64,000 nucleotides of DNA from Roseovarius indicus (GTDB lineage Bacteria > Pseudomonadota > Alphaproteobacteria > Rhodobacterales > Rhodobacteraceae): the NCBI RefSeq assembly GCF_008728195.1, contig NZ_CP031598.1, forward strand, positions 248,001 to 312,000. The letters run 5' to 3'. A program made the translations under genes and the position numbers. Below, in pieces: positions 27,210 to 56,329 of the stretch (the stretch's first letter is position 1; every line of letters begins with the position of its first letter). The notes under the pieces were generated by a model. The model did not search any database. It worked only from the letters and a program-made list of their open reading frames with translations, and was not told the origin of the DNA.

Positions 27210-27260
27210 TCGGTATCGCGTCGGTATTACGTCGGTATTTTGTCGGTGTTTTTTCGGTGG
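27210..27260 (+). repeat. 11-bp-periodic TCGGTAT array, copy A (5 units)
   Basis: Heptamers TCGGTAT, TCGGTAT, TCGGTAT, TCGGTGT and TCGGTGG start at 27210, 27221, 27232, 27243 and 27254, exactly 11 bp apart with 4-bp spacers. The array lies between holA and the alanine-rich orphan gene, 64-114 bp before that gene's start. It is followed by GGTTAACGCGCCGTGCG (27270-27286), a string that also follows copy C. Confidence 0.85.
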
Positions 27261-27323
27261 GAGGGCTTGGTTAACGCGCCGTGCGCTGGACTTGGCGAGA
27301 ACGGCGGGGCAGGCTGCTCGGGG

Positions 27324-28490
27324 ATGGTGGAGATTGCAGATATCGAGGATCGGGAGAGCCTGGAGGCGTGGCTGAAGGATCAGCCGCGCGAGGTGGCTGT
27401 CTGGATCGCATTGCGGGCGGCGGCGCGGGTGTTGCCGGTGTGGTGGGATGCGGTGCTGACTGATGACTGGGCGCACAAACGTGATTTGACGGCCCTGCCG
27501 GTTCTGCGCAGCCTGTTGCTATCTTCGGTTGCGGCGGTTGGACCAACCGAAGATAGCAACGCCACCGCCCACGCCGCCGACCGCGCCGCCTACGCCGCCC
27601 GCGCGGCCCGCGCTGCCGCCGACGTCACCGCCGACGCCACCGCCCACGCCGCCGCCCGCGCGGCCCGCGCCGCCGCCCACGCCGCCGCCGACGCCGACCG
27701 CGCCGCCTACGCCGCCGCCTACGCCGCTGCCGCCGCCGCCGACGCTGCTGCCGACAGCGACTTAGTCTGGGCTGCCATCAGACTGGATGTAGAACAGACG
27801 GCGGGGGGCTATGTGCCTGACACCTTGGCGCTGTGGCCGGATAGTAAGGGGCCGCTGGAGGAGCAATGGCGGGCGATCGTTTGGCAGGTGACCAATTCCG
27901 AGGAGGCTGAAGGCTGGCAGTTCTGGATAGAGTGGTACGACGCCCTGCTCGACGGTCGCCCCATGCTGGGCGATGCGGCGCGCACGTGGGAGATGTTGGA
28001 GGAGATTGCCCTGATTGACGACGCGACATGGGACGCGGGGCCGGAGGTGGTGAATCCGGTGATCCGGGAGATTTGGGATCTTTACCGGCTACGCGAAGAG
28101 GTGGCGGCCTTGTGCGCCGAAAAGGAGCAATTGCTGGCGGGCAGGGCATCTGCCGAGGCACGGTCGCACAATCAGCCGCCGGAACTGGTCGATACCGAAC
28201 CGGAAATGGCGCGGCAGGTCGAGGTTATCTGGGCCGGGCTGGACGCGGCGCAGGATGAGCTTGAGCAGGAGGTGCCGGACAAGCACGTGCTGCAACGCAC
28301 CGCCGAGGAAATGCTGGCTGCACTCAAAGCGGTTGCCGGGTATTGTGCAAAGGTGGGTGATGCGGTCGTGATGTCGGCTGCCAAGGTCGGCGGCGGCGCG
28401 GTCGGCACCGCTATCTTGGATCACGTCGCAAACAATGGCCGACTGTTCCAGTTCGCCAAGGACCTCTTTCAGTACGCCGTTGGCGGGTGA
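27324..28490 (+). CDS. Orphan alanine-rich repeat protein, unknown function
   Basis: 388 residues from the ATG at 27324. Residues 1-75 form an N-terminal domain (IADIEDRESLEAWLKDQPRE, WIALRAAARVLPVWWDAV). About 80-145 is a low-complexity helical tract built from A-A-x-A-A-[RHDY] units. Then comes a tryptophan-rich segment (EGWQFWIEWYDALLDGRP, TWEMLEEIALID), an HNQPPEL linker near residue 281, an acidic coiled-coil-like stretch and a glycine/alanine C-terminus (VGGGAVGTAILDHV). From memory, similar proteins with variable Ala tracts occur in other Rhodobacteraceae; no function is known to me. No signal peptide. It sits alone behind array A. Confidence 0.75.
   Translation: MVEIADIEDRESLEAWLKDQPREVAVWIALRAAARVLPVWWDAVLTDDWAHKRDLTALPVLRSLLLSSVAAVGPTEDSNATAHAADRAAYAARAARAAADVTADATAHAAARAARAAAHAAADADRAAYAAAYAAAAAADAAADSDLVWAAIRLDVEQTAGGYVPDTLALWPDSKGPLEEQWRAIVWQVTNSEEAEGWQFWIEWYDALLDGRPMLGDAARTWEMLEEIALIDDATWDAGPEVVNPVIREIWDLYRLREEVAALCAEKEQLLAGRASAEARSHNQPPELVDTEPEMARQVEVIWAGLDAAQDELEQEVPDKHVLQRTAEEMLAALKAVAGYCAKVGDAVVMSAAKVGGGAVGTAILDHVANNGRLFQFAKDLFQYAVGG
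27515..27560. repeat. Perfect 17-bp inverted repeat inside the Ala-rich gene
   Basis: Arms 27515-27531 and 27544-27560 are exact reverse complements, 12-nt loop between. It lies in the coding frame at the junction between the N-terminal domain and the alanine tract, encoding residues of the LLLSSVAAVGPTEDSN region. A hairpin this long within a coding sequence is unusual. Confidence 0.9.
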
Positions 28491-28557
28491 GCCGGCGCAG
28501 GTCTTGGGATTGTAAGGTGTATACACCTGACCGATTGCCCCTGTTGATGTCGCTCCC

Positions 28558-29757
28558 CTAATCCGGCTCCACCGGCACCCGCCTTGCCGCCAGCGCCAAG
28601 CCGCCAAAGATCACCACCCCCACCAAAACCGACCAGCCCAGGACCGTCTGGATATCCGCGTGGTCCATCTCCTTGGGCCCGGCCATGGCGGTTGAGACGA
28701 GGTAGAGCGTGGCGGCGAAGACGAGCCTTCCGCAGAAGCTTTGCAGGGAGAGGTAGGTGGCGCGGCTGCCGCTTGTCAGGAGGGTTTGCACCCGGGCGAT
28801 GAGGAAGGGGCGGGAGAGGGAGTCGGGGACCATGCGGAGGAAGAGGAAGGCGATGACGATGACGGAATCGCTGAGGGCGAGGATGCCGCAGAGGGCGATC
28901 TGTAGGGCGAAGGCGAGGAGGAGGATGGCGGGAAGCCCGAACTGGGTTCTGAGGCGCGGGGCGAAGAGGGAGGCGGCGACGGAGATGACCATCATGGTGG
29001 CCGAGACCGCGCCGCTGACCACGGGCGCCTCGGCGGCGAGGCCGGCCTTGGTGAGGGCGTCGAGGATGAAGGGCTGGCCGAAGACGAAGGGGAGGTGGCT
29101 GAAGCCGTACATCGCCATGCTGAGGGCGAAGAGCCAGGCGAGCACGGGGTTGCGGAGGGCGTCGCGCAGGTTGGCGAGTTGGGAGAGGGGTTCGAGGGCC
29201 TCGTCGGTTTTCTGCGGCGGGTCGCGGAAGGCGAGGGTGAGGGCCAGCACCACGAGCCCCGTCAGGGTGCCGGCCCAGAAGGGGGCGGTGGGGTCGAGCC
29301 GGTAGAGCAGGCCGCCGGTGAGGGCGGAGAGGGCGAGCGCCGCGAAGGAGAAGCGCCAGGCGGTGAGCTCCTGCTGTTCGATCTCGGCCTCGCGGTCGGC
29401 GGCGGCGAGGGATTCGTAGAGGAGCGCGCTGTCGGTGCCGGAGGAAAACGCCATGGCCGCGCCGATCAGGACCTGGGCCGCGGCGAGCAGCAGGAAGCTG
29501 TCGCCGCTGGCCAGCAGCGCGGCCCCCGCCACACCCGTGACGCCCGAGGCGATCAGGGTGGTGCGGCGGCCGAGCCTGTCGGACATGTAGCCCGAGGGCA
29601 CTTCGAGGGCGGTCGTTGCCACGTCGTAGACGGCGTAGAGCAGCACCGCCTCGGCGGGGGACAGGGTGCTTTGGAAGTACAGAAACCAGACGGCCTGCCA
29701 GAAGACGAGGCTTTGGAAGAAGCGGAACCAGCGGTAGAGGCGGATGTTCCGCGCCAT
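28558..29757 (-). CDS. MFS transporter
   Basis: About 399 residues from the ATG at 29757 (a GTG at 29793 would overlap the upstream gene by 20 bp). Twelve hydrophobic helices; the MFS loop 2-3 motif appears as GYMSDRLGRRTTLIASG, with a central cytoplasmic loop (RDPPQKTDEALEPLSQL). Substrate unknown; drug or metabolite efflux is usual for this group. It follows the GFA gene closely on the same strand, probably one transcript. Tail-to-tail with the Ala-rich gene; the 67-bp gap contains the palindrome GGTGTATACACC (28516-28527). Confidence 0.88.
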   Translation of the reverse strand: MARNIRLYRWFRFFQSLVFWQAVWFLYFQSTLSPAEAVLLYAVYDVATTALEVPSGYMSDRLGRRTTLIASGVTGVAGAALLASGDSFLLLAAAQVLIGAAMAFSSGTDSALLYESLAAADREAEIEQQELTAWRFSFAALALSALTGGLLYRLDPTAPFWAGTLTGLVVLALTLAFRDPPQKTDEALEPLSQLANLRDALRNPVLAWLFALSMAMYGFSHLPFVFGQPFILDALTKAGLAAEAPVVSGAVSATMMVISVAASLFAPRLRTQFGLPAILLLAFALQIALCGILALSDSVIVIAFLFLRMVPDSLSRPFLIARVQTLLTSGSRATYLSLQSFCGRLVFAATLYLVSTAMAGPKEMDHADIQTVLGWSVLVGVVIFGGLALAARRVPVEPD

Positions 29758-29773
29758 GGATGCGGGCAAGCGG

Positions 29774-30214
29774 TCAGGCTCCGGTCGCGTCACCGGGGGC
29801 GAACTGGGCGAAGACCTCGGCGCCGGTCATCTTTTTCGTATTGCCTGCGAAAGCATAGCCGTCGGGCTTTTCGTCGACGAAGACCTCCTCGGTCAGCTTG
29901 ACGCCGTTCGGGTCGTCGAGCAGGCCCATGCCGATGAACATGTCGCCCTGATGGGGACCGGGAGCGGTGAGGCGGTAGAAGAGGCTTGAGCCGCAGGTCT
30001 TGCAGAAGGTGCGTTCGGCCCAGTCGGAGGAGGGGTAGGTGCCGATATTGTCTTCGCCCGTGACGGTGGCCTGGCCGGCTGCGCAGGGGATCGCGAGGTA
30101 GATGCCGCCTGTCCATTTGCGGCACATGGAGCAGTGGCAGGCGCCGGTTTCTTTCGGCGCCTCGGCGAAGGTGATTGTCACGGCGCCGCAAAGGCAGGAT
30201 GCGCTGCATGTCAT
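29774..30214 (-). CDS. GFA/CENP-V-type zinc protein
   Basis: 146-residue member of the family that includes glutathione-dependent formaldehyde-activating enzyme. Zinc ligands show as SCLCGAVTITF, CHCSMCRKWTG and CKTCGSSLFYR. The ATG at 30214 has GGAGG seven bases upstream. Most family members do not act on formaldehyde, so only a small-molecule/thiol role can be inferred. Same operon as the MFS gene. Confidence 0.9.
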   Translation of the reverse strand: MTCSASCLCGAVTITFAEAPKETGACHCSMCRKWTGGIYLAIPCAAGQATVTGEDNIGTYPSSDWAERTFCKTCGSSLFYRLTAPGPHQGDMFIGMGLLDDPNGVKLTEEVFVDEKPDGYAFAGNTKKMTGAEVFAQFAPGDATGA

Positions 30215-30356
30215 GGGGGTTCCTCCGGTTGGGATGACGGGCTCAGCATAGCCGGTGATGCTGAAAGGTCTTGTCAGTAATTGCGACAGGCGATTGCCAT
30301 TGGCGCGGTGGCGGGGCAGTGTGGCGCCCGGCGACAGGACAAGGGAGGATCGCGTC

Positions 30357-30944
30357 ATGTACAAGGTCATTGGCAGCCGTGCGTCGCGGGGCCTTCGGGT
30401 GCTGTGGATGCTGGAAGAACTGGGGCAGCCTTACGAGCATGTGCCGGCCAAGCCGCGGAGTGACGAAGCGCTGGCGGCGAACCCGTCGGGGAAGATCCCG
30501 GCCTTGCAGGTGGATGGCGAGACGATCACCGACGCGGTGGCGATCATGACCTACCTGGCCGACCGGCACGAGGCGCTTACCTTTGGCGCCGGGACGCTGG
30601 AGCGGGCGCGGCAGGATGCGTTCACGCTGATGATTCTGGACGAGGTGGAGAACCTGTTGTGGATGGCGGCGCGGCATACCTTCGTGCTGCCGGAAGAGCG
30701 GCGGGTGCCGGAGATTAAGGATTCGTTAAAGTGGGAGTACGAACAGGCGCTTCCCCGGCTGGAAGCGGCGATGACGGGCCCGTTCCTGACGGGGGAAATG
30801 ATGACCCTCCCCGACATGCTGTTGACCCATTGCCTTGGCTGGGCCGAGCGGGCCGGGTTTGCCGAGGCGCCGGCCAAGCTGGCCGATCTGCGGGCGCGGA
30901 TGGAGGCGCGTGATGCGTTCCAGCGGGTGCTGGAGCTGCCGTGA
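30357..30944 (+). CDS. Glutathione S-transferase family protein
   Basis: 195 residues: N-terminal thioredoxin-fold domain (KVIGSRASRGLRVLWMLEEL, NPSGKIPALQVDGETITDAVAI with the cis-Pro and the glutathione-binding E/D-[ST] motif) and a C-terminal helical domain (GPFLTGEMMTLPDMLLTHCL). AAGGGAGGAT precedes the ATG at 30357. Divergent from the GFA gene; substrate unknown. Confidence 0.9.
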   Translation: MYKVIGSRASRGLRVLWMLEELGQPYEHVPAKPRSDEALAANPSGKIPALQVDGETITDAVAIMTYLADRHEALTFGAGTLERARQDAFTLMILDEVENLLWMAARHTFVLPEERRVPEIKDSLKWEYEQALPRLEAAMTGPFLTGEMMTLPDMLLTHCLGWAERAGFAEAPAKLADLRARMEARDAFQRVLELP

Positions 30945-31025
30945 GCGGGTGTGAAGATCGACGGCACGCTTCTTTCCGCTGACTTCGGCTTGCCGTGCTG
31001 TCTATCCGTGACAGGTTAACGGGCT

Positions 31026-31319
31026 ATGGACGATCCGATCTGTCCGCTATGCGGCCGGCCTATTCCGCCCGAGGCCAAGCAGAGCCTGCATCACCTTGTG
31101 CCCAAGCTGAAGGGCGGCAAGGGCGGGCCGGTCGTGCTGTTGCACCAGATCTGTCATAACGAGATCCATGCCACGCTGACCGAGGCGGAGCTGGCGCGGG
31201 AATTCTCCACAATAGAGGCGCTGAAGGCGCATCCGCGGCTGGAGAAGTTCATCCGGTGGGTGGCGAAGCGGCCGCCGGGGTTTCATTCGAAAACGCCGGG
31301 CGGGCGGCGCAAGCGCTAG
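31026..31319 (+). CDS. HNH-endonuclease-fold protein
   Basis: 97 residues. N-terminal CPLCGRPIP gives a CxxC zinc pair, followed by the core LHHLVPKLKGGKGGPVVLLH and QICHNEIHATLTEAE, i.e. the HH...N...H arrangement of HNH nucleases. Basic C-terminus (KTPGGRRKR). Single-domain stand-alone HNH proteins are common in roseobacters; cellular target unknown. Its TAG overlaps the stop of the convergent LysR gene. Confidence 0.85.
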   Translation: MDDPICPLCGRPIPPEAKQSLHHLVPKLKGGKGGPVVLLHQICHNEIHATLTEAELAREFSTIEALKAHPRLEKFIRWVAKRPPGFHSKTPGGRRKR

Positions 31320-32236
31320 GCGGCCTGGGGCGTGTCGGCCAAAGCCTCGGAAATGCGCTCGGCCATGAAGTCGATCAGCAGGCGCGTCTTGGGGTCCTGG
31401 TGGCGGCGGTGGGCGTAGAGGCAGCCCAGTTGCACCGGGACGGGCGGGCAGTCTTCCAGCACCGGGAGAAGGCGGCCCGTGGCGAGGTGGTCGGCCACCT
31501 CGAACCGGGGCTTCAGGATGATGCCGTGGCCGTCGAGCGCCCAGCTTGTCAGCACGTCGCCATCGTCGGATTCGAACGGTCCCTTGACCGAGAAGCGTTC
31601 GACCCCGTCGGGGGTTTCCAAGGGCCACTGGAATTCCTGCGCGCCGGGGTAGCGGAGGTTGAGGCAGTCATGGGCGCCCGAGGTGAGGTCGGTGGGGCGT
31701 TTCGGATGCCCTTTGTTTTCGAGGTAGACGGGGGCGGCGCAAAGGACGCGGGGACAATCGGCGATCTTGCGCATCTTGAGGGTGGAGTCGCGCGGCAGGC
31801 CGAGGAAGAAGGCCACGTCGAGCCCTTCGCCGGGCAGGTCGAGCGCGCGGTCGGAGAGGCGCAGGCGGATGTTGATGAGAGGGTAGGCCTGCTTGAAGGC
31901 GGGGACGTGTGGGGCGATCAGGCGGCGGCCGATTCCGAGGGGTGCCGCGATGAAGAGCGTGCCGCGGGGCGTGCGGGTGACGGAGGTGATTTCGGCCTCG
32001 GCATCCTCGACCGCCTCGAGGATCTTGCAGGCGCCGGGGTAGAAGAGGCGGCCCTGTTCGGTGGGGTTCAGCTGTCGCGTGGTGCGCTGGAAGAGGCGGA
32101 CGCCAAGGTGTTCTTCCAGTTGTGAAATGCGGGCCGAGGCGACGGCCGCCGAGATACGCTGATCGCGGGCGGCGGCGGACATGTTGCCCAGTTCGTAGAC
32201 ACGAACGAAGGTGCGGATGTTGTCGAGATAGGCCAT
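31316..32236 (-). CDS. LysR-family transcriptional regulator
   Basis: 306 residues from the ATG at 32236 (an upstream ATG at 32287 would add 17 residues in AT-rich, non-coding-looking DNA). N-terminal winged HTH: NIRTFVRVYELGNMSAAARD..ARISQLEEHLGVRLFQRTTRQ; C-terminal periplasmic-binding-like effector domain. Divergent from puuD, so control of urate oxidation is a fair guess. The spacer has the AT-rich stretch expected of shared promoters. Confidence 0.92.
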   Translation of the reverse strand: MAYLDNIRTFVRVYELGNMSAAARDQRISAAVASARISQLEEHLGVRLFQRTTRQLNPTEQGRLFYPGACKILEAVEDAEAEITSVTRTPRGTLFIAAPLGIGRRLIAPHVPAFKQAYPLINIRLRLSDRALDLPGEGLDVAFFLGLPRDSTLKMRKIADCPRVLCAAPVYLENKGHPKRPTDLTSGAHDCLNLRYPGAQEFQWPLETPDGVERFSVKGPFESDDGDVLTSWALDGHGIILKPRFEVADHLATGRLLPVLEDCPPVPVQLGCLYAHRRHQDPKTRLLIDFMAERISEALADTPQAA

Positions 32237-32343
32237 GGCGCGCTGATCTTCAGGTTCTGTTTGAAACTGATCTGTTTTTTCATTCAATAGAGAAGAATGC
32301 GCAGGCGCGCTAGGGTGGCGCGGTCTGAAGGAGTTTTCGCCAA

Positions 32344-33579
32344 ATGTATGAACTTGCGATCATCTGGGACTGGCTCGGCTTTGCCATCCGCTGGCTGCAT
32401 GTCATCACGGCGATGGCGTGGATCGGGTCGTCGTTCTACTTCATCGCGCTGGACCTTGGGCTGCGCAAGGCGCCGGACCTGCCGGAAGGCGCGCATGGCG
32501 AGGAGTGGCAGGTGCATGGGGGCGGGTTCTACCATATCCGCAAGTACCTCGTGGCACCGGAGCGGATGCCGGAGCACCTGACGTGGTTCAAATGGGAGAG
32601 CTATTCGACGTGGTTGTCGGGGGCGGCTTTGCTGATGGTGGTCTACTGGGCCGGGGCGGAGTTGTACCTGATCGACCGGACGAAGGTGGATCTGGCCGTC
32701 TGGCAGGGGATCGCGATTTCGGCGGCCTCGCTGGGGGTGGGCTGGCTGGTTTATGACCGGCTGTGCAAGTCGCCGCTGGGGGAGCGGCCGACGTTGCTGA
32801 TGGTGCTGCTGTTCGGGCTGCTGGTGGCGATGGGGTGGGGGTATACGCAGGTCTTCACGGGGCGCGCGATGATGCTGCACCTCGGCGCCTTCACGGCGAC
32901 GATCATGACGGCGAACGTGTTTCTCATCATCATTCCGAACCAGAAGATCGTGGTGGCGGACCTGAAGGCGGGCCGGGTGCCGGATGCGAAATACGGGAAG
33001 ATCGCGAAGCTGCGGTCGACGCATAACAACTATCTGACTTTGCCGGTTATTTTCCTGATGTTGAGCAATCATTACCCGCTGGCCTTTGCGACCGAGTGGA
33101 ACTGGGTCATTGCGGCGCTGGTGTTCCTGATGGGGGTGACGATCCGGCATTGGTTCAACACGCGGCATGCGGGGACGGGGAACCCGCACTGGACATGGGC
33201 GGTGACGGTGCTGCTGTTCCTGGCGGTCATGTGGCTGTCGACGGCGCCCTTGCGGCAGGGGGATCTGGATGAGGCGGAGGCAAGGGAATTGTCAGCGTCT
33301 GAAAGGGTTTATGCAGAGGCCGAGGGGTTCGAAGAGGCGCGAGATATCGTGCTGGGGCGGTGTTCGATGTGCCATGCGCGGGAGCCTGTCTGGACGGGGG
33401 TCAGGCGGGCACCGAAGAACGTGCTGCTGGAGACGGAGGCGGAGATTGCGGCGCATGCGACGCCTATTTTCCTGCAGGCCGGGGCGAGCCATGCGATGCC
33501 GCCGGGGAACGTGACCTGGATGGAAGAGGACGAGCGGCGGGTGATCGTGGCGTGGTACCGGGCGGCGAACGGGGGGTGA
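32344..33579 (+). CDS. puuD: Membrane urate hydroxylase PuuD with C-terminal cytochrome c
   Basis: 411-residue integral membrane protein that oxidises urate to 5-hydroxyisourate. About eight TM helices begin with RWLHVITAMAWIGSSFYFI; family motifs include HLTWFKWESYSTWLSGAALL and RSTHNNYLTLPVIFLMLSNH. The C-terminal ~95 residues form a small cytochrome c domain with the haem motif CSMCH and a Met-containing HAMPPGN loop. No other purine-degradation gene lies in the window. Composition is strongly G-rich on this strand. Confidence 0.93.
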   Translation: MYELAIIWDWLGFAIRWLHVITAMAWIGSSFYFIALDLGLRKAPDLPEGAHGEEWQVHGGGFYHIRKYLVAPERMPEHLTWFKWESYSTWLSGAALLMVVYWAGAELYLIDRTKVDLAVWQGIAISAASLGVGWLVYDRLCKSPLGERPTLLMVLLFGLLVAMGWGYTQVFTGRAMMLHLGAFTATIMTANVFLIIIPNQKIVVADLKAGRVPDAKYGKIAKLRSTHNNYLTLPVIFLMLSNHYPLAFATEWNWVIAALVFLMGVTIRHWFNTRHAGTGNPHWTWAVTVLLFLAVMWLSTAPLRQGDLDEAEARELSASERVYAEAEGFEEARDIVLGRCSMCHAREPVWTGVRRAPKNVLLETEAEIAAHATPIFLQAGASHAMPPGNVTWMEEDERRVIVAWYRAANGG

Positions 33580-33598
33580 TTGGGGCTGAAAACCGACG

Positions 33599-33638
33599 TC
33601 GGTATAACGTCGGTATTTTTTCGGTATTGCGTCGGTGC
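33599..33638 (+). repeat. 11-bp-periodic TCGGTAT array, copy B (4 units)
   Basis: Heptamers start at 33599, 33610, 33621 (all TCGGTAT) and 33632 (TCGGTGC), exactly 11 bp apart. Located 20 bp after the puuD stop, between the convergent ends of puuD and the arsC-like gene, so it is not in an obvious promoter. Two palindromes follow at once. Confidence 0.85.
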
Positions 33639-33649
33639 TTGGTGAGGAT

Positions 33650-33696
33650 CGATATCTTGAAAAGATATCGGGTCGAATTCTTTTAAAGAATTCGAC
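33650..33696. repeat. Two consecutive palindromes next to array B
   Basis: First hairpin CGATATCTT-GAA-AAGATATCG (33650-33670), then a second with 12-bp arms and a 1-nt centre (33672-33683 / 33685-33696). The string CGGGTCG joins them, as it joins two different palindromes next to copy C. The second lies 10 bp past the arsC-like stop and could also end transcription. Confidence 0.85.
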
Positions 33697-33705
33697 GGGG
33701 CGGGT

Positions 33706-34047
33706 TCAGAGGATGTCGAGGGCCTTTTCCGGCGGGCGGGCGATGACGGCTTTCTCGCCGGAGAATATGACCGGGCGTTCGATGAGTTTCGGGGCTTCGG
33801 CCATGGCCTTTAACAGGGTCTCGTCGGGGTCGGATTTCGAGAGCCCCATCTCCTTGAAGACGGCTTCGCCCGTGCGGATCATCTGGATGGCGGGCAGGCC
33901 GAGTTTCGACTGGGCGTCCTGCAGTTCGGCCAGAGTGGGCGGCTCGTCGAGGTAGCGGCGGATGGTGATCTTTTCGCCGCGCTCTTCCAGCAGGGCGAGG
34001 GCCTGGCGGGATTTCGAGCAGCGGGGGTTGTGCCAGATGGTTGTCAT
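33706..34047 (-). CDS. arsC: ArsC-family glutaredoxin-dependent reductase
   Basis: 113 residues of the ArsC/Spx/YffB fold. [17 protein letters not shown] carries the N-terminal catalytic Cys near residue 10; [13 protein letters not shown] and [20 protein letters not shown] match arsenate reductases rather than Spx, with an Arg (R91) in the expected substrate-binding position. No other ars genes nearby, so the physiological substrate is uncertain. ATGA overlap with pyrD. Confidence 0.88.
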
Positions 34048-35102
34048 AGCCAGTCCTTCGTTTTTGTGCCGGTGGCGTCGGCGACGTTGGTGAAGCCATC
34101 CTGTTCGAGCAGGCGGTCGAGGCCGCGGGCGATGGTTTCGACCAGCGAGAGCCCCTCGTAGACCATGGCCGAGTAGAGTTGCACGGCGGTGGCGCCGGCG
34201 CGGATCTTGGCGTAGGCGTCTTCGGCCGAGCTTATGCCGCCGACGCCGATGAGGGGGAGGTCGCCGTTGGTCAACTGGGCGAGTTTGGCCAGCACGCGGG
34301 TGGATTTTTCGAAGAGGGGGCGGCCGGAGAGGCCGCCGGCCTCGCCTTTTGCGGGGCTTGTCAGGCCCTCGCGGGACAGCGTGGTGTTGGTGGCGATGAT
34401 GGCGGCAAGGCCCGACTGGCGGGCGACGTCGGCGATTTCGGAAAGCTCGGCATCGGTCAGGTCGGGGGCGATCTTGAGGAAGATCGGTATGGGGGTCGGC
34501 AGGGTATCGCGGGCGGCCATGACGCCCGAGAGGAGGGAGGCCAGCGCCTCGGCCCCTTGCAGGTCGCGCAGCTTCTCGGTGTTGGGGCTGGAGACGTTGA
34601 CGGTGGCGAAATCGAGATGCGGGCCGCAATGGGCCAGCACGCGGGCGAAATCGTCGGCGCGGTCGGCGCTGTCCTTGTTGGCGCCGAGGTTGAGGCCGAT
34701 GACGGCGTCGCGGGGGCGGTTGGCGAGGCGGGCGCCGACCGCTTCCATGCCGTCGTTGTTGAAGCCGAAGCGGTTGATGACGGCGCGGTCTTCGGTGAGG
34801 CGGAAGAGGCGGGGGCGGGGGTTGCCCGGTTGCGGGCGCGGGGTGACGGCGCCGGCCTCGAGGAAGCCGAACCCGGCACGGGAGAGGGGGCTGAGGGCGG
34901 TGGCGTTCTTGTCGTAGCCCGCGGCGAGGCCGATGGGGTTGGGGAGGTGGAGGCCGGCGAGCTGGGTGCGCAGGCGCGGGCTGGTGATGAGGCCGGGGAG
35001 GGGCACGGCGCCGAGGCGGAGGGCCTGAAGGCTGAGCCCGTGGGCGGTTTCGGGGTCGAACCGGTGGAGGAAAGAAAGGCCCGCGCGCTCGAAGAGGTTC
35101 AT
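34044..35102 (-). CDS. pyrD: Dihydroorotate dehydrogenase (quinone), class 2
   Basis: 352-residue membrane-associated FMN enzyme oxidising dihydroorotate with quinone in pyrimidine synthesis. N-terminal amphipathic segment ([20 protein letters not shown]) specific for class 2; [32 protein letters not shown], the catalytic-Ser region [27 protein letters not shown] and [17 protein letters not shown]. Middle gene of a three-gene operon with ATGA overlaps on both sides. Confidence 0.96.
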
Positions 35103-35860: not shown

Positions 35861-35965
35861 GGGGCCGGTGATGCCCCGCCGTCATGCGCCGGTCAAGCCG
35901 GAAGGTTTTGACGGAACGCGAAAGCGCGGGCAAACTCGATTTCATACCAACAGGAGTTTGAGACC

Positions 35966-46662: not shown

Positions 46663-46798
46663 CTTGGCGTCTCTTTCCTGAGTGTCGCGCGGGCTTTGGC
46701 ATGACGCTGCGAAAAATGCAACGCGACCCGACGTCAGACTTGATCGGTTGTGGGATCGGGCCTCAAGCTGAACGCAGTTTTCAAAGGGAGGAGAACCT

Positions 46799-47191: not shown

Positions 47192-47205
47192 TCTGAACCG
47201 TGGGA

Positions 47206-47283: not shown

Positions 47284-47335
47284 GGCGGTGTGCTCCGGCT
47301 TCTTTCGCTTGGCGCTTGGCGGACGGCGGGTTTCT

Positions 47336-47361
47336 GGGGGTATTTCAGACCATAAAGAAGC
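47336..47361 (+). repeat. Degenerate TATTT...AAAGAAG repeat
   Basis: GGGGGTATTTCAGACCATAAAGAAG, a diverged member of the dispersed TATTT-GCCAAGAAGAAG family, 50 bp after copy 2 of the two-hairpin repeat. The rest of the 238-bp gap between DUF2147 and hisH shows nothing else. Confidence 0.5.
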
Positions 47362-47429
47362 AGTGGCGACTTCCCGGCTTCATCTTGCCGGAAATACTCC
47401 CGCCGGAGGCATAAAAGTTCTTTTGGGGA

Positions 47430-48068: not shown

Positions 48069-48072
48069 GAGC

Positions 48073-48660: not shown

Positions 48661-48739
48661 CCGTGGAATCCGTCAGTGGTTTCGCGCCCTTATAGGCGGG
48701 CGCGCCCCGCAGGCCAAGGGCCTGTTGGGGTGACGGATG

Positions 48740-49747
48740 TCAGGCAGCTTCGGGCTGGAGGCGCATCTCCTGCAGGATTTCGGCCGCGATTTCGAAGGAG
48801 CGGAGGCGGGCGGCGTGATCGTGGATCATGCCGGTGATCATCAGCTCGTCGGGCTGGAACGTGTCGATCAGGGTGCCGAGCTGTTGCCGCACGCGGTCGG
48901 GCGAGCCGGTGGCGGAGCAGGCCAGCGCCTCGCGGACCTGGGCCAAGACGGGGGTGGGGATCTCCCGTGTGACATCCTCGACCGGGTAGGGCAGCTTGCC
49001 CGGCTTGCCGGTTCTGAGGCGGGCGAAGGCGAGGATCTGGGAGGAGCGGTGATAGGTCGCCTCCTCGTCGGTGTCGGCAGCGCAGACGCCGGCGGCCATC
49101 ATGACGTGGGGTTTGTCGAGAAACTCCGAGGGCCGGAAGGTTTGGCGGTAGGTTTCGATCGCCTGTTCCAGCATCGCGGGGGCGAAGTGGGAGGCGAAGG
49201 CATAGGGCAGGCCCAGATAGGCCGCGAGCTGCGCGCCATAGAGGCTGGAGCCGAGGATCCAGACGGGCACATGGGTGCCGGTCCCGGGGATGGCGCGGAC
49301 GGTGGCGTTGTCGGGCATATCGCCGAGATAGGCGATCAGCTCCTGCACGTCGTTCGGGAAGCTGTCTTCGGGGGCCATGTGGCGGCGCAGGGCCCGGGCG
49401 GTGGCCATGTCGGTGCCCGGTGCGCGGCCGAGGCCGAGGTCGATGCGGCCCGGGTAGAGGGTGGCCAGCGTGCCGAATTGCTCGGCGATCACCAGGGGCG
49501 CGTGGTTGGGCAGCATGATGCCGCCCGCGCCGATGCGCATGGTTTTCGTGGCCCCGGCGACATGGCCGATGACGACGGACGTGGCGGCGCTGGCGATGCC
49601 GGGCATGTTGTGATGCTCGGCCAGCCAGTAGCGGTGATAGCCGAGCCGTTCGGCGTGTTGGGCGAGATCGACCGTGGCTGCCAGCGCGTCGCCGGCGGTT
49701 TTCCCCTCGGGGACGGGGGAGAGGTCGAGGAGTGAGAAATTCTGCAT
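48740..49747 (-). CDS. LLM-class flavin-dependent oxidoreductase
   Basis: 335 residues, luciferase-like monooxygenase fold. N-terminus [16 protein letters not shown] ([19 protein letters not shown]), then [37 protein letters not shown] segment, [13 protein letters not shown] and [20 protein letters not shown], the signature of the MsnO8/YhbW subgroup. The ATG at 49747 has GGAGG seven bases upstream. Substrate unknown. Confidence 0.92.
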
Positions 49748-50200
49748 GGGGGCCTCCGTTACGGTGAAGCTAATCATCGCGGGAGGGGAGGCCAAGGCCG
49801 GGGCGGGAGAAATCGGGGCATGGGGGTGATTCCATCGGGTGAGGTCGGGTCTTGTGCGATGCGCCGTTGAATTTGGCGCCTGCGCGGAATCGAGGGCGAA
49901 GCCCACCGCGCATCGACGGGCCGTCCGGACGGCACGGCGATTTGGCGGGTGGAGTGCCACGCTCGAATGGTGGAAGTGTTTGGCGGGGATAAAGTGCCAA
50001 TCACGACTGTCGGATCGCCGTACCACGGCCCACCTCTCGGCGATTGCAGGCAATCGCCTGCCGGTCAGCGGACGATGCGCGGCTTCTCAGCGCGGGAGGC
50101 GACACTCTAAGGCCCTGAGCATTGTCGTGCAGCGTGTACGGAAACGGGCGCTGCCGCGTGGGCGGCGATTTCCGTGGACGTCAGTCTTGAATGGAAGAAT
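49748..50200. other. Gene-free stretch beside tRNA-Gly
   Basis: About 450 bp with no convincing gene; short open frames here lack ribosome sites and family resemblance. Two palindromes stand out: GCCGTCC-GGACGGC (49920-49933) and GGCGATTGC-AG-GCAATCGCC (50039-50058). The stretch may be a degenerate repeat or the scar of an element at the tRNA, or simply the LLM gene's upstream region. Confidence 0.4.
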
Positions 50201-50275
50201 TGGAGCGGGTGATGAGATTCGAACTCACGACATTTACCTTGGCAAGGTAACGCTCTACCCCTGAGCTACACCCGC
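50201..50275 (-). tRNA. tRNA-Gly (anticodon GCC)
   Basis: Minus-strand cloverleaf: acceptor stem GCGGGTG/CACCCGC, D arm from TAGCTCAGGGGTAGAGC, anticodon stem TTACC/GGTAA with loop TTGCCAA (anticodon GCC), T arm with GTTCGAATC, discriminator T and an encoded CCA at 50203-50201. Reads GGC/GGT glycine codons. Confidence 0.96.
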
Positions 50276-50369
50276 ATCCTTGGGTGAGGCGTGAGATATA
50301 AAGACTTTGGCGCCGCTGCAAGGGGAAAATGCAGGGGGGGCGAGGATTTTTCGGCGGAAATCGGCGGGA

Positions 50370-50759
50370 TCAGAAGAGGGCGTGGCCGATAAGGCCGAGG
50401 CCGGAGAGCAGGAGCATGGTGAAGGTGAGGACCATGCCGGCCTGACGGAGCGGCAGGATCTGGGGGGTGGAGCCGAAGCCCACCGCGTGAAGGAGGCGGC
50501 CGGCGAGGAGGGTGAGGCCGAGGAGGTGGAGCGCCCATACGGGCGCGCCCTGGAGTTCGGCGAGCAGCAGGAGCAGTGCGCCGAAGGGGGCGTATTCGGC
50601 ACAGTTGGCTTGCGTGCGGATGCGTTTGCGCAGCGCCTTGTCGCCGTCGTCGCCCAGCGAGATTTTCGACGACCAGCGGTAGAAGATGACCCGGAAGCTG
50701 AGGAAGATCAGCAGGAGGGCGAGGGCGCCGGCGTAGAGGGGCGTGACGATGAGGGGCAA
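50370..50759 (-). CDS. MAPEG-family membrane protein
   Basis: 129 residues with four TM helices. Family marks are RVIFYRWSSKISLGDDGD, RIRTQANCAEYAPFGALLLLL (the conserved R-x-x-x-N-x-x-E-Y/F core) and LLHAVGF. Start is TTG at 50759 with CGGAG upstream; no suitable ATG exists nearby. Glutathione- or lipid-related chemistry is typical of MAPEG proteins but is untested here. It is preceded by the DUF2314 gene on the same strand. Confidence 0.88.
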   Translation of the reverse strand: MPLIVTPLYAGALALLLIFLSFRVIFYRWSSKISLGDDGDKALRKRIRTQANCAEYAPFGALLLLLAELQGAPVWALHLLGLTLLAGRLLHAVGFGSTPQILPLRQAGMVLTFTMLLLSGLGLIGHALF

Positions 50760-50780
50760 GGGAGGCTCCGTTTTTCGAGG

Positions 50781-51272
50781 TTACCAGCCGGGCGGGAGGG
50801 GCCGGTCGGAGAGGGTGGCGCGGACCTGTGCGCGGGCTTCGGTGTCGAGGCCTTCGAGGATCACGCGGGTGGTGTAGCTGCCATAGGCGCGGTCGCCGAT
50901 ATGATAGACCCAGTCGTAGATCTGCTCCGTGGTGAAGGCGACCGGGTCGCCGTAGGCGAGGCCATCCATGTAGATGGGGTCGTTGGCGAGGCGGCCGATC
51001 CAGTTCGGGCCGACCTTGCCGAGTTGCTCGACCCAGATCACCTCGACCCAGTCGGTACCGACTTCGAAGGCGACCTTGACCAGCGCGTCGGGGCTGGCGA
51101 GGCGGTCGCCGTCGAAGGCATTGCGGACGAAGAGGGGGAGCGTGTCCTGCGCCTGATCGATCGCGGCGTTCATGACGGGATCGGTGTCGGCGAAATGGGT
51201 GACGTTTTCGTCGGCGCGCAGCGGGGCGGCGAGGAGCAGCGTGAGGGCCAGCAGGGCGGAAAACGGTTTCAT
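50781..51272 (-). CDS. DUF2314 secreted protein
   Basis: 163 residues with signal peptide FSALLALTLLLAAPLRA. Mature part begins ENVTHFADTDPVMNAAIDQA; WVEVIWVEQLGKVGPNWIGRL and YDWVYHIGDRAYGSYT match DUF2314 (a small beta-rich domain of unknown function). Upstream of the MAPEG gene by 21 bp, same strand, probably co-transcribed. Downstream of the pyc terminator. Confidence 0.85.
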   Translation of the reverse strand: MKPFSALLALTLLLAAPLRADENVTHFADTDPVMNAAIDQAQDTLPLFVRNAFDGDRLASPDALVKVAFEVGTDWVEVIWVEQLGKVGPNWIGRLANDPIYMDGLAYGDPVAFTTEQIYDWVYHIGDRAYGSYTTRVILEGLDTEARAQVRATLSDRPLPPGW

Positions 51273-51293
51273 GATGAGCGACTGGGTCCAATG

Positions 51294-51321
51294 AAAAACC
51301 CCGCAACCATAGGTCGCGGGG
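51294..51321 (-). terminator. Rho-independent terminator of pyc
   Basis: Read on the minus strand: 10-bp stem CCCCGCGACC/GGTTGCGGGG (one G-T wobble), loop TAT, then TTTTT. It lies 28 bp beyond the pyc stop and before the DUF2314 gene. Confidence 0.92.
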
Positions 51322-51348
51322 CTCGTTCGGTAAACCGGGATGTCGTCG

Positions 51349-54300
51349 TTATTCCAGCTCGATCATCAGGTCCTTGGCGTCGATCTGGCTGCCGGGCTGG
51401 ACGTGGATGGCTTTCACCGTGGCGTCGCGTTCGGCGTAGATGCCGGTTTCCATCTTCATGGCCTCGATGGTCAGGAGGGCGTCGCCGTCCTTGACCTTCT
51501 GGCCGAGCTGCACCGAGACGGAGGCCACGACGCCGGGCATGGGGGCGCCGACATGGTCGGCATTGCCGGCTTCGGCCTTGGGGCGCTGGGTGGTCTGGGA
51601 TTTGACCATGCGGTTCGGCACGCGGATGACGCGGGGCTGGCCGTTCAGTTCGAAGAAGACGCGCACGTCGCCGTCTTCGTTGGTCTCGCCCACGGCCTGA
51701 AGCAGGATCTCCATGGTCTTGCCCGGGTCGATCTCGACGCTGATCTCCTCGCCCGGTTCCATGCCGTAGAAGAAGGTCTTGGTGGGCAGGGTGCGGACGG
51801 GGCCATAGGTGCGGTGGCGGCCCATGTAATCAAGGAAAACCTTGGGATACATGAGGTAGCCGTTGAGATCTTCGCGGTCGACCTTCTTGCCCTCGAGCTC
51901 TTCCACCAACTGGGTGTGCGTCGCTTCGAGGTCGATGGGCTCGAGGTGTTTGCCGGGGCGTTCGGTGTTGGGTTTCTCGCCCTTGAGGACCTTGTTGACG
52001 ATCTTGTCAGGGAAACCGCCCGGGGGCTGGCCGAGGTTGCCACGCATCATGTCGATGACCGAATCGGGGAAGGCCACGTCTGTGTCGGGGTCTTCGACCT
52101 GTTCGCGGGTGAGGCCCTGGCTGACCATCATCAGGGCCATGTCGCCGACGACCTTGGAGGATGGCGTGACCTTGACGATATCGCCGAACATCTTGTTCAC
52201 GTCGGCATAGGTCTGGGCCACCTCGTGCCAGCGTTCCTCGAGCCCGAGGGAGCGGGCCTGGGCCTTGAGGTTGGTGAACTGGCCGCCGGGCATTTCGTGG
52301 AGGTAGACTTCCGATGCCGGGGCCTGAAGCCCGGCCTCGAAGGCCACGTACTGGGCGCGGACGTGTTCCCAGTAGTTCGACAAAGCCCGGACATGGGCGA
52401 TGTCGAGGCCGGTGTCACGCTCGGTATGGGCCATCGCCTCGACGATCGAGCCGAGGCAGGGCTGGGAGGTGCCGCCCGAGAAGGCATCCATCGCCGCATC
52501 GACCGCATCGACGCCGGCATTGGCGGCGGCGAGGATGGTGCCGCCGGCGATGCCGGAGGTGTCATGCGTGTGGAAGTGGATGGGGATCGAGACTTCGTTT
52601 TTGAGGGCGGTGATGAGCTGGCGGGCGGCGGCGGGTTTGAGGAGGCCCGCCATGTCCTTGAGACCCAGCACGTGGGCGCCGGCGTTCTCCATCTCCTTGG
52701 CCATCGAGACGTAGTACTTGAGGTCGTACTTGGCGCGGTCGGGGTCGAGGATGTTGCCGGTGTAGCAGATCGTGCCCTCGCAGATCTTGCCGGTGTCGAT
52801 GACGGCGTCCATCGCGACGCGCATGTTCTCGACCCAGTTGAGGCTGTCGAAGACGCGGAAGACGTCGACGCCGGTTTCGGCGGCTTGCCGCACGAATTCC
52901 TGCACCACGTTGTCGGGGTAGTTGGTGTAGCCCACCCCGTTGGAGGCGCGCAGCAGCATCTGGGTCAGCAGGTTGGGCATGGCGGCGCGCAGCTCGCGCA
53001 GGCGCTGCCAGGGGCATTCCTGCAGGAAGCGGTAGGCCACGTCGAAGGTCGCCCCGCCCCAGCATTCGACCGAGAAGAGCTGCGGCACGTTATGGGCATA
53101 GGCGGGCGCCACCCGGATCATGTCGATCGAGCGCATCCGCGTGGCCAGCAATGACTGGTGACCGTCACGCATGGTGGTGTCGGTCAGGAGCAGCCGGTTC
53201 TGCTCGAGCATCCAGTCGGCGACCGCCTTGGCACCCTGCTCTTCCAGCAGGGTCTTGGTGCCGGCAGGCGGTTCCTTGGCGTCGAGTTTCGGCGCTTTCG
53301 GCACCGGCGCGTCGGCCTTGGGCTTGGCCCGCCCCTGGGTTTCCGGGTGACCGTTCACCGTGATGTCGGCGATATAGGTCAGCACCTTGGTGCCCCGGTC
53401 GCGCCGCTTGGCGAACTGGAAAAGCTCCGGTGTCGTGTCGATGAACTTGGTGGTGTATTCGTTCGACAGGAAGGTCGGGTGCTTCAGCAGATTCTCGACG
53501 AAGGCGATATTGGTCGACACACCCCTAATACGGAATTCACGCAACGCACGGTCCATCCTTGCGATGGCGGCTTCGGGGGTTTGCGCGTGCGCCGTGACCT
53601 TGGTGAGCAGCGAATCGTAGTAGCGCGTGATGACCCCGCCGGAATAGGCGGTGCCGCCGTCGAGACGGATGCCCATGCCCGTGGCCGAGCGATAGGCGGT
53701 GATGCGGCCATAGTCGGGGATGAAGTTGTTGAGCGGGTCCTCGGTGGTGATCCGGGTCTGAAGGGCGTGGCCGTTCAGGGTGATGTCTTCCTGCGTTTTC
53801 TTGCGCGTGGCCTCGGCCAGGGTCTTGCCCTCGGCGATCATGATCTGGGCCTGCACGATGTCGATGCCGGTCACCTCTTCGGTGACGGTATGTTCGACCT
53901 GTACGCGGGGGTTCACCTCGATGAAGTAGAACTGGTTGGTGTCCATATCCATCAGGAACTCGACCGTGCCGGCGCATTCGTAATCGACATGCTTGCAGAT
54001 CTTGTAGCCGAGCTCGCAGATCTCGGAGCGCTGGAGGTCGGTGAGATAGGGGGCGGGGGCGCGTTCGACGACTTTCTGGTTGCGGCGCTGGACCGAGCAG
54101 TCGCGCTCGAACAGGTGGTACATGTGGCCGTGCTTGTCGCCGAGGATCTGCACCTCGACATGGCGGGCGCGGGTGATCATCTTTTCGAGATAGCCCTCGC
54201 CGTTGCCGAAGGCGGCGAGCGCCTCGCGGCGGCCTTCGAGCACCTTTTCCTCAAGCTCTTCGGGCTTGGTGACGGGCCGCATGCCGCGGCCGCCGCCGCC

Positions 54301-54792
54301 CCAGGAGGCCTTGAGCATCATCGGGTAGCCGATTTCCTTGGCCTGTTTGCGGATGAGGTCCATATCCTCGCCCAGCACCTCTGTGGCGGGGATGACGGGC
54401 ACGCCGGCCTCGACCGCGACGCGGCGGGCGGAGGCCTTGTCGCCCAGGGCGCGCATGGTCTCGGCCCGGGGGCCGATGAAGGTGATGCCGTTCGCCGCGC
54501 AAGCATCGACGAAATCGGGGTTTTCCGACAGGAGGCCATAGCCCGGGTGGATGGCGTCGGCGCCGGAGAGCTTGGCGACGCGGATGATCTCGTCGATGGA
54601 GAGATAGGCCTGGACGGGGCCCAGCCCCTCGCCGATGCGATAGGCCTCGTCGGCCTTGAAGCGGTGGAGGGAGAGCTTGTCTTCCTCGGCGAAGACGGCG
54701 ACCGTGCGCTTGCCCATCTCGTTGGCCGCGCGCATCACGCGGATCGCGATTTCGCCGCGGTTGGCGATGAGGATTTTCTTGAAGTCAGCCAC
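51349..54792 (-). CDS. pyc: Pyruvate carboxylase
   Basis: 1147-residue biotin enzyme making oxaloacetate from pyruvate. Domain order: biotin carboxylase (1 to ~450; ILIANRGEIAIRVMRAANE, KASWGGGGRGMRPV), carboxyltransferase (~530-800; LTDTTMRDGHQSLLATRMR, SVECWGGATFDVAYRFL, KDMAGLLKPAAARQL, HFHTHDTSGIAGGT), central tetramerisation domain and C-terminal biotinyl domain with the lysine in EAMKMETG. GTG start at 54792 with AGGAGGG eight bases upstream. Monocistronic; ends at a strong terminator. Confidence 0.97.
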   Translation of the reverse strand: MADFKKILIANRGEIAIRVMRAANEMGKRTVAVFAEEDKLSLHRFKADEAYRIGEGLGPVQAYLSIDEIIRVAKLSGADAIHPGYGLLSENPDFVDACAANGITFIGPRAETMRALGDKASARRVAVEAGVPVIPATEVLGEDMDLIRKQAKEIGYPMMLKASWGGGGRGMRPVTKPEELEEKVLEGRREALAAFGNGEGYLEKMITRARHVEVQILGDKHGHMYHLFERDCSVQRRNQKVVERAPAPYLTDLQRSEICELGYKICKHVDYECAGTVEFLMDMDTNQFYFIEVNPRVQVEHTVTEEVTGIDIVQAQIMIAEGKTLAEATRKKTQEDITLNGHALQTRITTEDPLNNFIPDYGRITAYRSATGMGIRLDGGTAYSGGVITRYYDSLLTKVTAHAQTPEAAIARMDRALREFRIRGVSTNIAFVENLLKHPTFLSNEYTTKFIDTTPELFQFAKRRDRGTKVLTYIADITVNGHPETQGRAKPKADAPVPKAPKLDAKEPPAGTKTLLEEQGAKAVADWMLEQNRLLLTDTTMRDGHQSLLATRMRSIDMIRVAPAYAHNVPQLFSVECWGGATFDVAYRFLQECPWQRLRELRAAMPNLLTQMLLRASNGVGYTNYPDNVVQEFVRQAAETGVDVFRVFDSLNWVENMRVAMDAVIDTGKICEGTICYTGNILDPDRAKYDLKYYVSMAKEMENAGAHVLGLKDMAGLLKPAAARQLITALKNEVSIPIHFHTHDTSGIAGGTILAAANAGVDAVDAAMDAFSGGTSQPCLGSIVEAMAHTERDTGLDIAHVRALSNYWEHVRAQYVAFEAGLQAPASEVYLHEMPGGQFTNLKAQARSLGLEERWHEVAQTYADVNKMFGDIVKVTPSSKVVGDMALMMVSQGLTREQVEDPDTDVAFPDSVIDMMRGNLGQPPGGFPDKIVNKVLKGEKPNTERPGKHLEPIDLEATHTQLVEELEGKKVDREDLNGYLMYPKVFLDYMGRHRTYGPVRTLPTKTFFYGMEPGEEISVEIDPGKTMEILLQAVGETNEDGDVRVFFELNGQPRVIRVPNRMVKSQTTQRPKAEAGNADHVGAPMPGVVASVSVQLGQKVKDGDALLTIEAMKMETGIYAERDATVKAIHVQPGSQIDAKDLMIELE

Positions 54793-54856
54793 CGGCCCGC
54801 CCTCCTGACATTTGGTCCTGTGTGCGTGGCACCGCGGAATTGCCGCAGTGCAGCGC

Positions 54857-54900
54857 CATTGCTGCGCAACTTGTAGGATTTGTGAAAGGTTTGCGCAATG
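54857..54900. promoter_or_regulatory. Inverted repeat upstream of pyc
   Basis: CCATTGCTGCGCAAC and GTTTGCGCAATGG face each other about 65-108 bp before the pyc start, with TGCGCAA (54863-54869) and TTGCGCA (54891-54897) as the exact arms, 21 bp between. Looks like an operator or promoter-overlapping site for pyc; the binding protein is unknown. Confidence 0.4.
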
Positions 54901-54991
54901 GCGGCGGTGGCCGTTCCACCCTTTCGCGAGAGATTCTGCCCGATCGGGGAGGCGGGATTACCCGGATTGGAGGCGGGGAAGTGCCGCGATA

Positions 54992-56173
54992 TCAGGGGGT
55001 TGGCGGGGCGCCATAGGGCGTGCCTTGGGGGGTGCGGGTGGCGGGGACTACCCGGTTGCGCACCTCTGTCAGGGTGCGGATGCCGAGCTGGCCCATATTG
55101 GCTTCGAGATCGGCCTTGAGGATATGGGCGAGGTGGCCGGGGCCGGCGGGCCCGAGGGCGGCGAGGGCGTAGTGCCAGCCGCGGCCCATCATGGTGAAAT
55201 CGGCCCCGAGCGCGATGGCGCGGAGGATGTCGAGCCCGCCCTCGATGCCGCCGTCGAAGATGATCGGCAGGGAGGTGGCGGCGCGGATCGCGGGCAGGGC
55301 GTCGATGGTGGCCGGGGCCGCGTCGAACTGGCGGCCGGCATGGTTCGAGATCCAGATCGCGTCGGCGCCTTCCTTTTCGAGCCGTTTGGCATCGTCGGGG
55401 TTCATCACGCCCTTGACGAGGAAGGGCCCCTCCCACGCGTCGCGGAGCCAGCGCAGGTAGTCCCAGTCGGGGGAGGTGCGCAGCAGGTAGCCCGCGTGCT
55501 TGTTCGAGGGCAAGCCCTTGGTATTGGGGGCATAATCGTCGATCATCCGCATCCTTGGCATGCCGCGTTTGGCCATGCCGAGCGCCCAGGCGGGGCTGGT
55601 GGCGATATGGGCCAGAAGGCGGGGGGTGATGCGGGGCGGCTGGGTCAGGCCGGAGCGGACCTGGCGTTCGCGGCGGGAGCCGACGGGGACGTCGACGGTG
55701 AGGATGAGGGTGCGGAAGCCGGCGGCCTTGGCCCGTTTGAGCATGTCGGTGCGGATCTCGGGGTCGCGCGGCGGGTACATCTGGAACCAGCCGTGATCGC
55801 CCAGCACCGGTTGGACATCCTCGGGGGTCTGGCTGGCCACGGTGGAGAGGCCGTAAGGGATGTTCGCGGCGGCCGCGGCGCGGGCGAGGTGGCGCTCGGC
55901 ATCGGGCCAGACGAGGCCGGACATGCCGACCGGCGAGATGCCGACGGGGAGATCGTAAGTGGTTCCGAGGAAAGAGATTTCCGTGGAGCACTCGATCTCG
56001 CCATGGAGGATGGAGGGCATGAGCTGGACCGCGTCGAGGCCTGTGCGGTTGCGGCGGGTGGTGGCCTCGGTTCCGGTGCCGCTGTCGAGGAATTCCCAGA
56101 CGAAATGCGGCAGGCGGCGGCGGGCGCGGGCGCGCAGGTCGGAGAGGGCGGGATATGCGGTGTCGAGGCTCAT
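54992..56173 (-). CDS. lldD: FMN-dependent alpha-hydroxy-acid dehydrogenase (LldD type)
   Basis: 393 residues. FMN and substrate motifs: FVWEFLDSGTGTEATTRRNR, PVGISPVGMSGLVWPDAE, FQMYPPRDPEI, LILTVDVPVGSRRERQVR, FLVKGVMNPDDAKRLEKEG, the catalytic His in WISNHAGRQFDAAPATID, and IFDGGIEGGLDILRAIALGA. L-lactate is the usual substrate; other 2-hydroxy acids are possible. The ATG at 56173 is preferred; further upstream the frame is repeat-associated DNA. Array C lies in its upstream region. Confidence 0.92.
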   Translation of the reverse strand: MSLDTAYPALSDLRARARRRLPHFVWEFLDSGTGTEATTRRNRTGLDAVQLMPSILHGEIECSTEISFLGTTYDLPVGISPVGMSGLVWPDAERHLARAAAAANIPYGLSTVASQTPEDVQPVLGDHGWFQMYPPRDPEIRTDMLKRAKAAGFRTLILTVDVPVGSRRERQVRSGLTQPPRITPRLLAHIATSPAWALGMAKRGMPRMRMIDDYAPNTKGLPSNKHAGYLLRTSPDWDYLRWLRDAWEGPFLVKGVMNPDDAKRLEKEGADAIWISNHAGRQFDAAPATIDALPAIRAATSLPIIFDGGIEGGLDILRAIALGADFTMMGRGWHYALAALGPAGPGHLAHILKADLEANMGQLGIRTLTEVRNRVVPATRTPQGTPYGAPPTP

Positions 56174-56289
56174 GGGAGAGAGCGATAGCAAGCGGCGGCG
56201 GGGGGCGGAAGAGGGAATGGTGACGGCGGTGGTTTCTGCGATGCGGCGCGAATCATGGTTAATGGCGTTGTTTTGAAGGAAAGGGGACG

Positions 56290-56329
56290 TCGGTATCACG
56301 TCGGTATTTTGTCGGTATCGCGTCGGTGC
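56290..56329 (+). repeat. 11-bp-periodic TCGGTAT array, copy C (4 units)
   Basis: Heptamers TCGGTAT at 56290, 56301, 56312 and TCGGTGC at 56323, exactly 11 bp apart. The array is 117-156 bp upstream of lldD and 400 bp upstream of the orphan 56737 gene. It is followed by GGGTTAATGCGGCGTGCGG (from about 56348), as in copy A, and then by five palindromes. Confidence 0.85.

Follow-up and report, generated by a model that had tools for sequence, protein, structure and literature searches.

The window, a stretch of 64,000 nucleotides of Roseovarius indicus DNA, corresponds to positions 248001-312000 of contig C1 (5,445,172 bp), which starts at dnaA according to our reading of its first genes. It holds three arrays of directly repeated TCGGTAT heptamers, here called A, B and C (Table 1). 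An earlier note on this DNA had claimed an exact 11-bp period, a last unit decaying to TCGGTG, a position of array B between convergent gene ends and a spacing too regular for chance, and all four points were borne out. Successive units begin exactly 11 bp from each other, at 27210, 27221, 27232, 27243 and 27254 in array A, at 33599, 33610, 33621 and 33632 in array B, and at 56290, 56301, 56312 and 56323 in array C. The last unit is TCGGTGC in B and C, and the last two units of A are TCGGTGT and TCGGTGG. The pattern TCGGTATN4TCGGTAT with up to 2 mismatches gave 10 matches in the window compared to 0.13 expected from shuffles, a count of 10 being reached in 0 of 100 shuffles; the three arrays hold nine of the 10. 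By our own gene calling, array A is placed between the end of one plus-strand gene (27161) and the start of another (27324), array B between gene ends at 33579 and 33706, and array C in a divergent gap from 56191 to 56797. An Rfam scan of the window gave one tRNA as the sole match above the curated cut-off, and the idea of the array as an RNA element was dropped on that result.

Table 1. Features of the 64,000-nucleotide window
Feature	Position	Strand	Description
Array A	27210..27260	+	5 units, 11-bp spacing
Array B	33599..33638	+	4 units, 11-bp spacing, convergent gene ends on both sides
Array C	56290..56329	+	4 units, 11-bp spacing
Array A left flank box	27169..27181	+	GAATC, then GGTTAA at 27176-27181
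Array A right flank box, GGTTAA	27269..27274	+	
Array C left flank box	56250..56262	+	GAATC, then GGTTAA at 56257-56262
Array C right flank box, GGTTAA	56349..56354	+	
Skew-free stretch	1..26000	.	5′ of array A
Polarised domain	27750..64000	+	mean GC skew 0.209 vs 0.005 before

The gene directly 3′ of array A (27324-28490, plus strand) encodes a hypothetical protein with no Pfam match; among the matches listed, a TIR domain (PF13676) is found in three relatives of its product and PF19658 in one, all as partial-length matches. In Roseovarius sp. A-2, an array adjoins homologues of both neighbour genes of array A.

A genome-wide search with a four-unit pattern (up to 3 mismatches) gave 100 matches, which were reduced to 91 arrays by removing nine overlapping registers, while the reversed pattern gave none in this genome. 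The dispersal claimed in the earlier note extends over the chromosome. All 91 arrays lie on the 5.45-Mb chromosome, C1, at a mean spacing of 60 kb. The four remaining contigs, 728 kb in total, had none, compared to ~12 expected by length (chance of none, 1.1e-5). Flanks were analysed for 83 of the 91 arrays (80 fetched and the three in the window; eight were left out), of which 81 are intergenic by our gene calling: 32 in convergent gaps, 13 in divergent gaps and 36 in same-direction gaps, where the array is co-oriented with the genes in 19 and opposed in 17. The TCGGTAT core is near-invariant over the 83 arrays, in part since the search pattern demanded it. The spacers group into sub-families, suggesting that whole arrays may be copied. 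A GGTTAA-like box stands on both flanks of 36 of the 83 arrays, including A and C. With one unit per helical turn, the array is a plausible putative protein-binding site. A search for recurring neighbour genes that might encode the array-binding protein gave no candidate, and a literature search found no description of the arrays among the matches listed (open-licence papers).

GC skew follows the orientation of the arrays. The strand carrying TCGGTAT was G-rich within 1 kb, with the array itself excluded, at 82 of 83 arrays, and skew agreed with array orientation at 80 of 83 within 4.9 kb and at 74 of 83 when intergenic DNA alone was counted. Agreement of skew with the replichore was seen at 61 of 83 (boundary at the skew turn, ~2.77 Mb, chosen after the data were seen). 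Agreement with the coding strand was seen at just 37 of 83, and a coding-strand effect was dropped for that reason. The best single change point of skew in the window is at 27750, just beyond array A; the next array beyond the skew-free stretch, at C1:233175 on the minus strand, is outside the window. In two contiguous 400-kb stretches (0.54-0.94 and 1.29-1.69 Mb), skew was about zero away from arrays, stepped up at an array and decayed in one direction; it was about zero between divergently pointing arrays and passed through zero between arrays facing each other. All seven arrays picked for the absence of a near co-directional upstream array showed a skew jump. A search for a polar 8-mer beyond base composition gave none that was convincing.

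To describe the domains, we fitted a five-parameter model to 3,147 bins of 500 bp, which gave an R2 of 0.67 compared to 0.25 for the replichore alone. Fitted skew had an amplitude of 0.173 and an e-fold length of 52 kb downstream of the array, an amplitude of 0.20 and an e-fold length of 4.5 kb upstream, and a replichore baseline of 0.026. The sign of the skew is equal on both sides of an array and the upstream reach is short. Rotated array sets fitted worse in 30 of 30 cases, with the fitted parameters kept. Replichore bias by itself was also rejected as an account: 67 of the 91 arrays show it, and a two-breakpoint permutation gave p 0.001 for R. indicus (68/91), p 0.019 for genome G269 (50/67) and p 0.82 for G175 (36/53). 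As a description, the rule that skew domains begin at oriented arrays and run one way holds strongly in R. indicus, and other genomes lend it support.

The same relation was seen in relatives. Skew agreed with array orientation at 29 of 30 loci in G269 (24 distinct arrays) and at 26 of 28 loci with a GTATGG core (27 distinct arrays; two of 30 failed the strict pattern and were left out). Of the named TCGGTAT loci, 118 were listed (with titles for 80; two of the other 38 had low GC) and seven lay outside the family by title, leaving 111; agreement was found at 94 of 118, or 91 of 111. Loci found with a CGT-only pattern agreed at 24 of 30 in one set, some of them with a common array, and at 11 of 17 in a second set (13 of 30 loci left out), which is not significant and contains many probable chance matches. 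On contig C6 of G145, plus-strand arrays at 244, 362 and 127 kb were followed by skews of 0.168, 0.163 and 0.066 and preceded by 0.023, 0.011 and 0.003. At loci whose array is inverted relative to a shared neighbour gene, the gene-strand skew changed sign in four of five cases (L131, L135, L244 and the G145 yajC locus), while it was kept in 18 of 18 cases with arrays in the same orientation; L160 was left out of the inversion count because its mismatch is in side and not in strand. In G278, a genome of the same genus in which no arrays were found, skew was weak (-0.057 to 0.096 in 20-kb pieces).

Several results count against the explanation preferred below. These are the disagreeing named loci (24 of 118, or 20 of 111) together with the second CGT set, the fall of skew to -0.026 by 24 kb past the G145 array 362163(+), and the weak skew (-0.026 and -0.044) after the G145 minus-strand array at 110 kb, the one sampled downstream (that at 41 kb was left out). 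At L112, the fifth inversion, gene-strand skew went from 0.218 to 0.033 and kept its sign, and the yajC locus of G261 disagrees with the rule. In R. indicus, skew also rises at places without a recognised array, although weakly, for example near 688-696 kb.

Base composition at fourfold sites showed what the skew consists of. In the window, the frequencies were A.069, C.439, G.429 and T.063 upstream of array A and A.026, C.238, G.701 and T.035 downstream, so that crossing the array brings G from 0.43 to 0.70 on the strand of the array, with losses of 62% for A, 46% for C and 44% for T. Cytosine deamination, our first idea, was given up after these counts: the purine share goes from 0.50 to 0.73, beyond what transitions alone allow, and C-to-T deamination is therefore insufficient. 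The gain of G at the cost of A, T and C together favours recombination or DNA exchange over ordinary replication or transcription. Mismatch repair that spares C-containing mismatches on one strand of recombination heteroduplex would shift composition in the observed direction; an alternative source would be a mutagenic polymerase that synthesises long tracts. Near arrays in G145 and G269, G is 0.50 and 0.52 and C is 0.32 and 0.26, with T and A near 0.1, so A and T are not seen to be depleted there, which counts against the preferred explanation. G278 has G.42-.45, C.36, T.10-.12 and A.08-.10. GC content was 0.657-0.678 in five domain stretches compared to 0.607-0.631 in four array-poor stretches, with a small difference in the window (0.651 vs 0.662); the higher values may in part reflect core as opposed to accessory genes, with accessory DNA lowering the array-poor stretches.

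Arrays occur in other genera, in part with other cores. A three-unit TCGGTAT pattern with one mismatch matched 25 of 394 family genomes. Named hosts among the TCGGTAT loci listed include Roseovarius, Salinihabitans, Pseudooceanicola, Shimia and Silicimonas. The reversed-pattern control unexpectedly matched five other genera: genomes G145, G067, G105 and G135 have arrays with the core GTATGGC, and G211 gave a single weak match. The CGT-only pattern gave at least 8 matches in 13 of 394 genomes, including G132, where the matches are perfect short tandem repeats. Its reversed control reached at least 8 in 24, so the counts prove nothing and the case for further cores lies in the matched sequences themselves. 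Many reversed-CGT matches occur in G023, G298, G232, G300 and G292, which possibly have arrays with a CGTGCAC-like core. In 189 genomes of other families of the class, the CGT pattern, which detects CGT-containing arrays alone, gave at most 4 matches per genome, compared to up to 30 for the reversed control (G505). A de novo search for 11-bp arrays in G278 found no excess in 400 kb sampled from a 2.99-Mb contig. In G175, different units recur in order on contig C1 (for example CGTCGGTTTCC, CGTCCCGCCCG, CGTCGGTTCCG and CGTATGGCATC at 2262134-2262180), suggesting that whole arrays may be copied there or that the units may form a code.

Some arrays keep their gene-junction position between genera though the core differs. 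Of the 111 named TCGGTAT arrays, 18 adjoin a gene whose homologue neighbours an array in R. indicus, the matched genes being the immediate neighbour of that array in 24 cases, the second in six and the third in six. Junctions shared with R. indicus were found for five of the 28 GTATGG loci and for none of 23 in G269, so sharing is not universal. Upstream of yajC, in the 30 genomes inspected, a clear array is present in R. indicus, G261, G145 and G067, and a looser one in G328. At about position 1500 of L250, L259 and L311, which represent three genera, an array apparently lies within a gene like the neighbour of the R. indicus array at 3677140, by our reading a valyl-tRNA synthetase. GGTTAA boxes also recur: L258 (G145) has two, L351 (G175) has GAATC and then GGTTAA as in the window, and in 90 such loci the 23.4 kb close to arrays contain 10 boxes, compared to 12 in the other 231 kb.

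We put at about even the chance that the arrays are cis-acting, directional sites at which a polar and processive DNA process begins; recombination or DNA exchange accompanied by biased conversion is its most likely nature. A putative DNA-binding protein would recognise the array, touching one 11-bp unit per helical turn, and would recruit a machine that starts at most a few kb 5′ of the array, passes through it and continues 3′-ward over an e-fold distance of about 50 kb. A strand-asymmetric process, possibly strand-specific biased conversion of heteroduplex DNA, would then push the array strand towards G over evolutionary time. The arrays with their positions, the orientation rule, the jump and decay of skew, the composition and the inversion cases are observations; we infer the protein, the machine, recombination and the causal role of the array, and biased conversion from base composition. 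A wider form of this proposal seems to us somewhat short of even: that the arrays start one-way exchange of ~50 kb of DNA on chromosomes and not plasmids, that the cores are lineage codes read by a co-evolving protein, and that its recurrent action has reshaped the codon composition of much of the core genome and made the GC-skew peaks of Rhodobacterales.

Among the alternatives, one-way replication start or restart sites are unlikely. On that account the skew would be the leading/lagging skew of forks leaving the arrays, and its sign does fit 3′-ward forks with a G-rich leading strand; the 61 of 83 arrays that agree with the replichore are oriented away from the dnaA end and towards the skew turn, a boundary set post hoc. 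However, the composition is unlike the weak replichore skew of G278, A and T both drop near the R. indicus arrays, and domains are about equally strong against the direction of replication. A little less likely still are Chi-like helicase-nuclease signals or transformation uptake signals in family dialects, to which the polar effect, the partial co-orientation with replication and the dialect-like core changes would correspond. The logic of an invading strand is also compatible with C-tolerant mismatch repair, but at one per ~60 kb the arrays are much more thinly spread than known Chi or uptake sequences, and the upstream reach is unexpected for Chi. Slightly behind these we place pac-like packaging sites used by a gene transfer system of phage origin distinct from RcGTA, from which one-way headful series of declining processivity would yield transferred DNA that recombines. 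Cleavage at pac is imprecise, in keeping with the one-way decay and a start blurred over a few kb upstream, and on the 8.8-kb viral contig L235 an array (~7972, minus strand) lies beside a GTA-like portal gene by our gene reading. Against this, a search limited to the RcGTA portal gave a best match of 28% identity (E 1.6e-14) in R. indicus and no close portal in G269 or G217, although all three have many TCGGTAT arrays; in G282, another such genome, the portal gene is split between two frames (C41:48812-49991), and G278 has an RcGTA-type portal but no arrays were found in it. Packaging sites of RcGTA itself were dropped on these results, RcGTA being unlikely to be the machine, and its small terminase appears to be without a DNA-binding domain in the cited passages of PMC6854486.

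That the arrays are non-causal, inserted in an orientation that follows existing skew, is improbable. Correlation by itself is compatible with it, and does not on its own establish the array as the cause of its domain; but the skew steps sit at arrays and decay from them, and where an array is inverted, the skew of the shared genes is mostly reversed too. Least probable are OmpR/PhoB-type (Pho-box) elements controlling neighbour promoters, an architecture that the earlier note had considered from the direct heptamers one helical turn apart. Positions and orientations relative to genes do not fit a promoter regulon, as the convergent gaps and the near-equal split of co-oriented and opposed arrays show. 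The confinement of arrays to the chromosome and the gene-junction positions kept under a change of core also argue against it, and the skew would be left unexplained. The mobile or structural repeat named there as the alternative came nearer in its structural part and missed the polarisation of skew over tens of kb.

The preferred reading, directional start sites, can be set beside known systems. Bidirectional replication origins have opposite skew on their two sides, whereas the arrays have the same sign on both. REP/REPIN elements have a palindromic unit; the array units are direct repeats with no inverted arms by eye. Chi is an oriented recombination signal with one-way reach, made of single 5-8-mers every few kb; the arrays would resemble it if their polarity, which is seen in composition, extends to recombination. 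DNA uptake sequences are genome-wide motifs with lineage dialects and are dense, about one per kb. Such dialects are described in Neisseriaceae (PMC3630211), and the arrays resemble them in having different cores in different genera but differ in density (91 in 5.45 Mb), in their 11-bp units and in their compositional domains. The TAACTGA heptamers of Beggiatoaceae are likewise abundant intergenic direct repeats; according to the cited passages of PMC4679880, they lie mostly just 5′ of start codons and are proposed to act on RNA, and no link to skew is seen there.

Extreme local GC skew and G-rich codons have been reported in Rhodobacterales by Koppenhofer, Tomasch and Lang 2022 (PMC9836097), who in the cited passages hold deamination to be a minor cause or none and ascribe the skew to codon usage, naming no sequence element. 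The order and the extreme skew are the same here, with the difference that the domains begin at oriented arrays, a possible sequence basis for these unexplained peaks. GC skew is usually taken as a record of replication; in the chromosome parts examined it follows oriented arrays better than replichores, and skew-based calls of origins or misassemblies in Rhodobacteraceae call for caution. Together, these results suggest that a previously unrecognised directional process, perhaps DNA exchange, starts at the arrays. In these abundant marine bacteria, the arrays give a precise point of access for testing such a process, which may be gene exchange.

Eight viral contigs were matched as well. By our reading, an array of the R. 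indicus kind is present in two of them, L234 and L235, both with Rhodobacteraceae-like DNA, and apart from L229 and L233 (below) the other matches resemble other repeats; phage spread of the arrays was rejected. Two viral contigs of ~50% GC, L229 (~10022) and L233 (~5947), have in common a five-unit 11-bp array of CGGTA type with other spacers.
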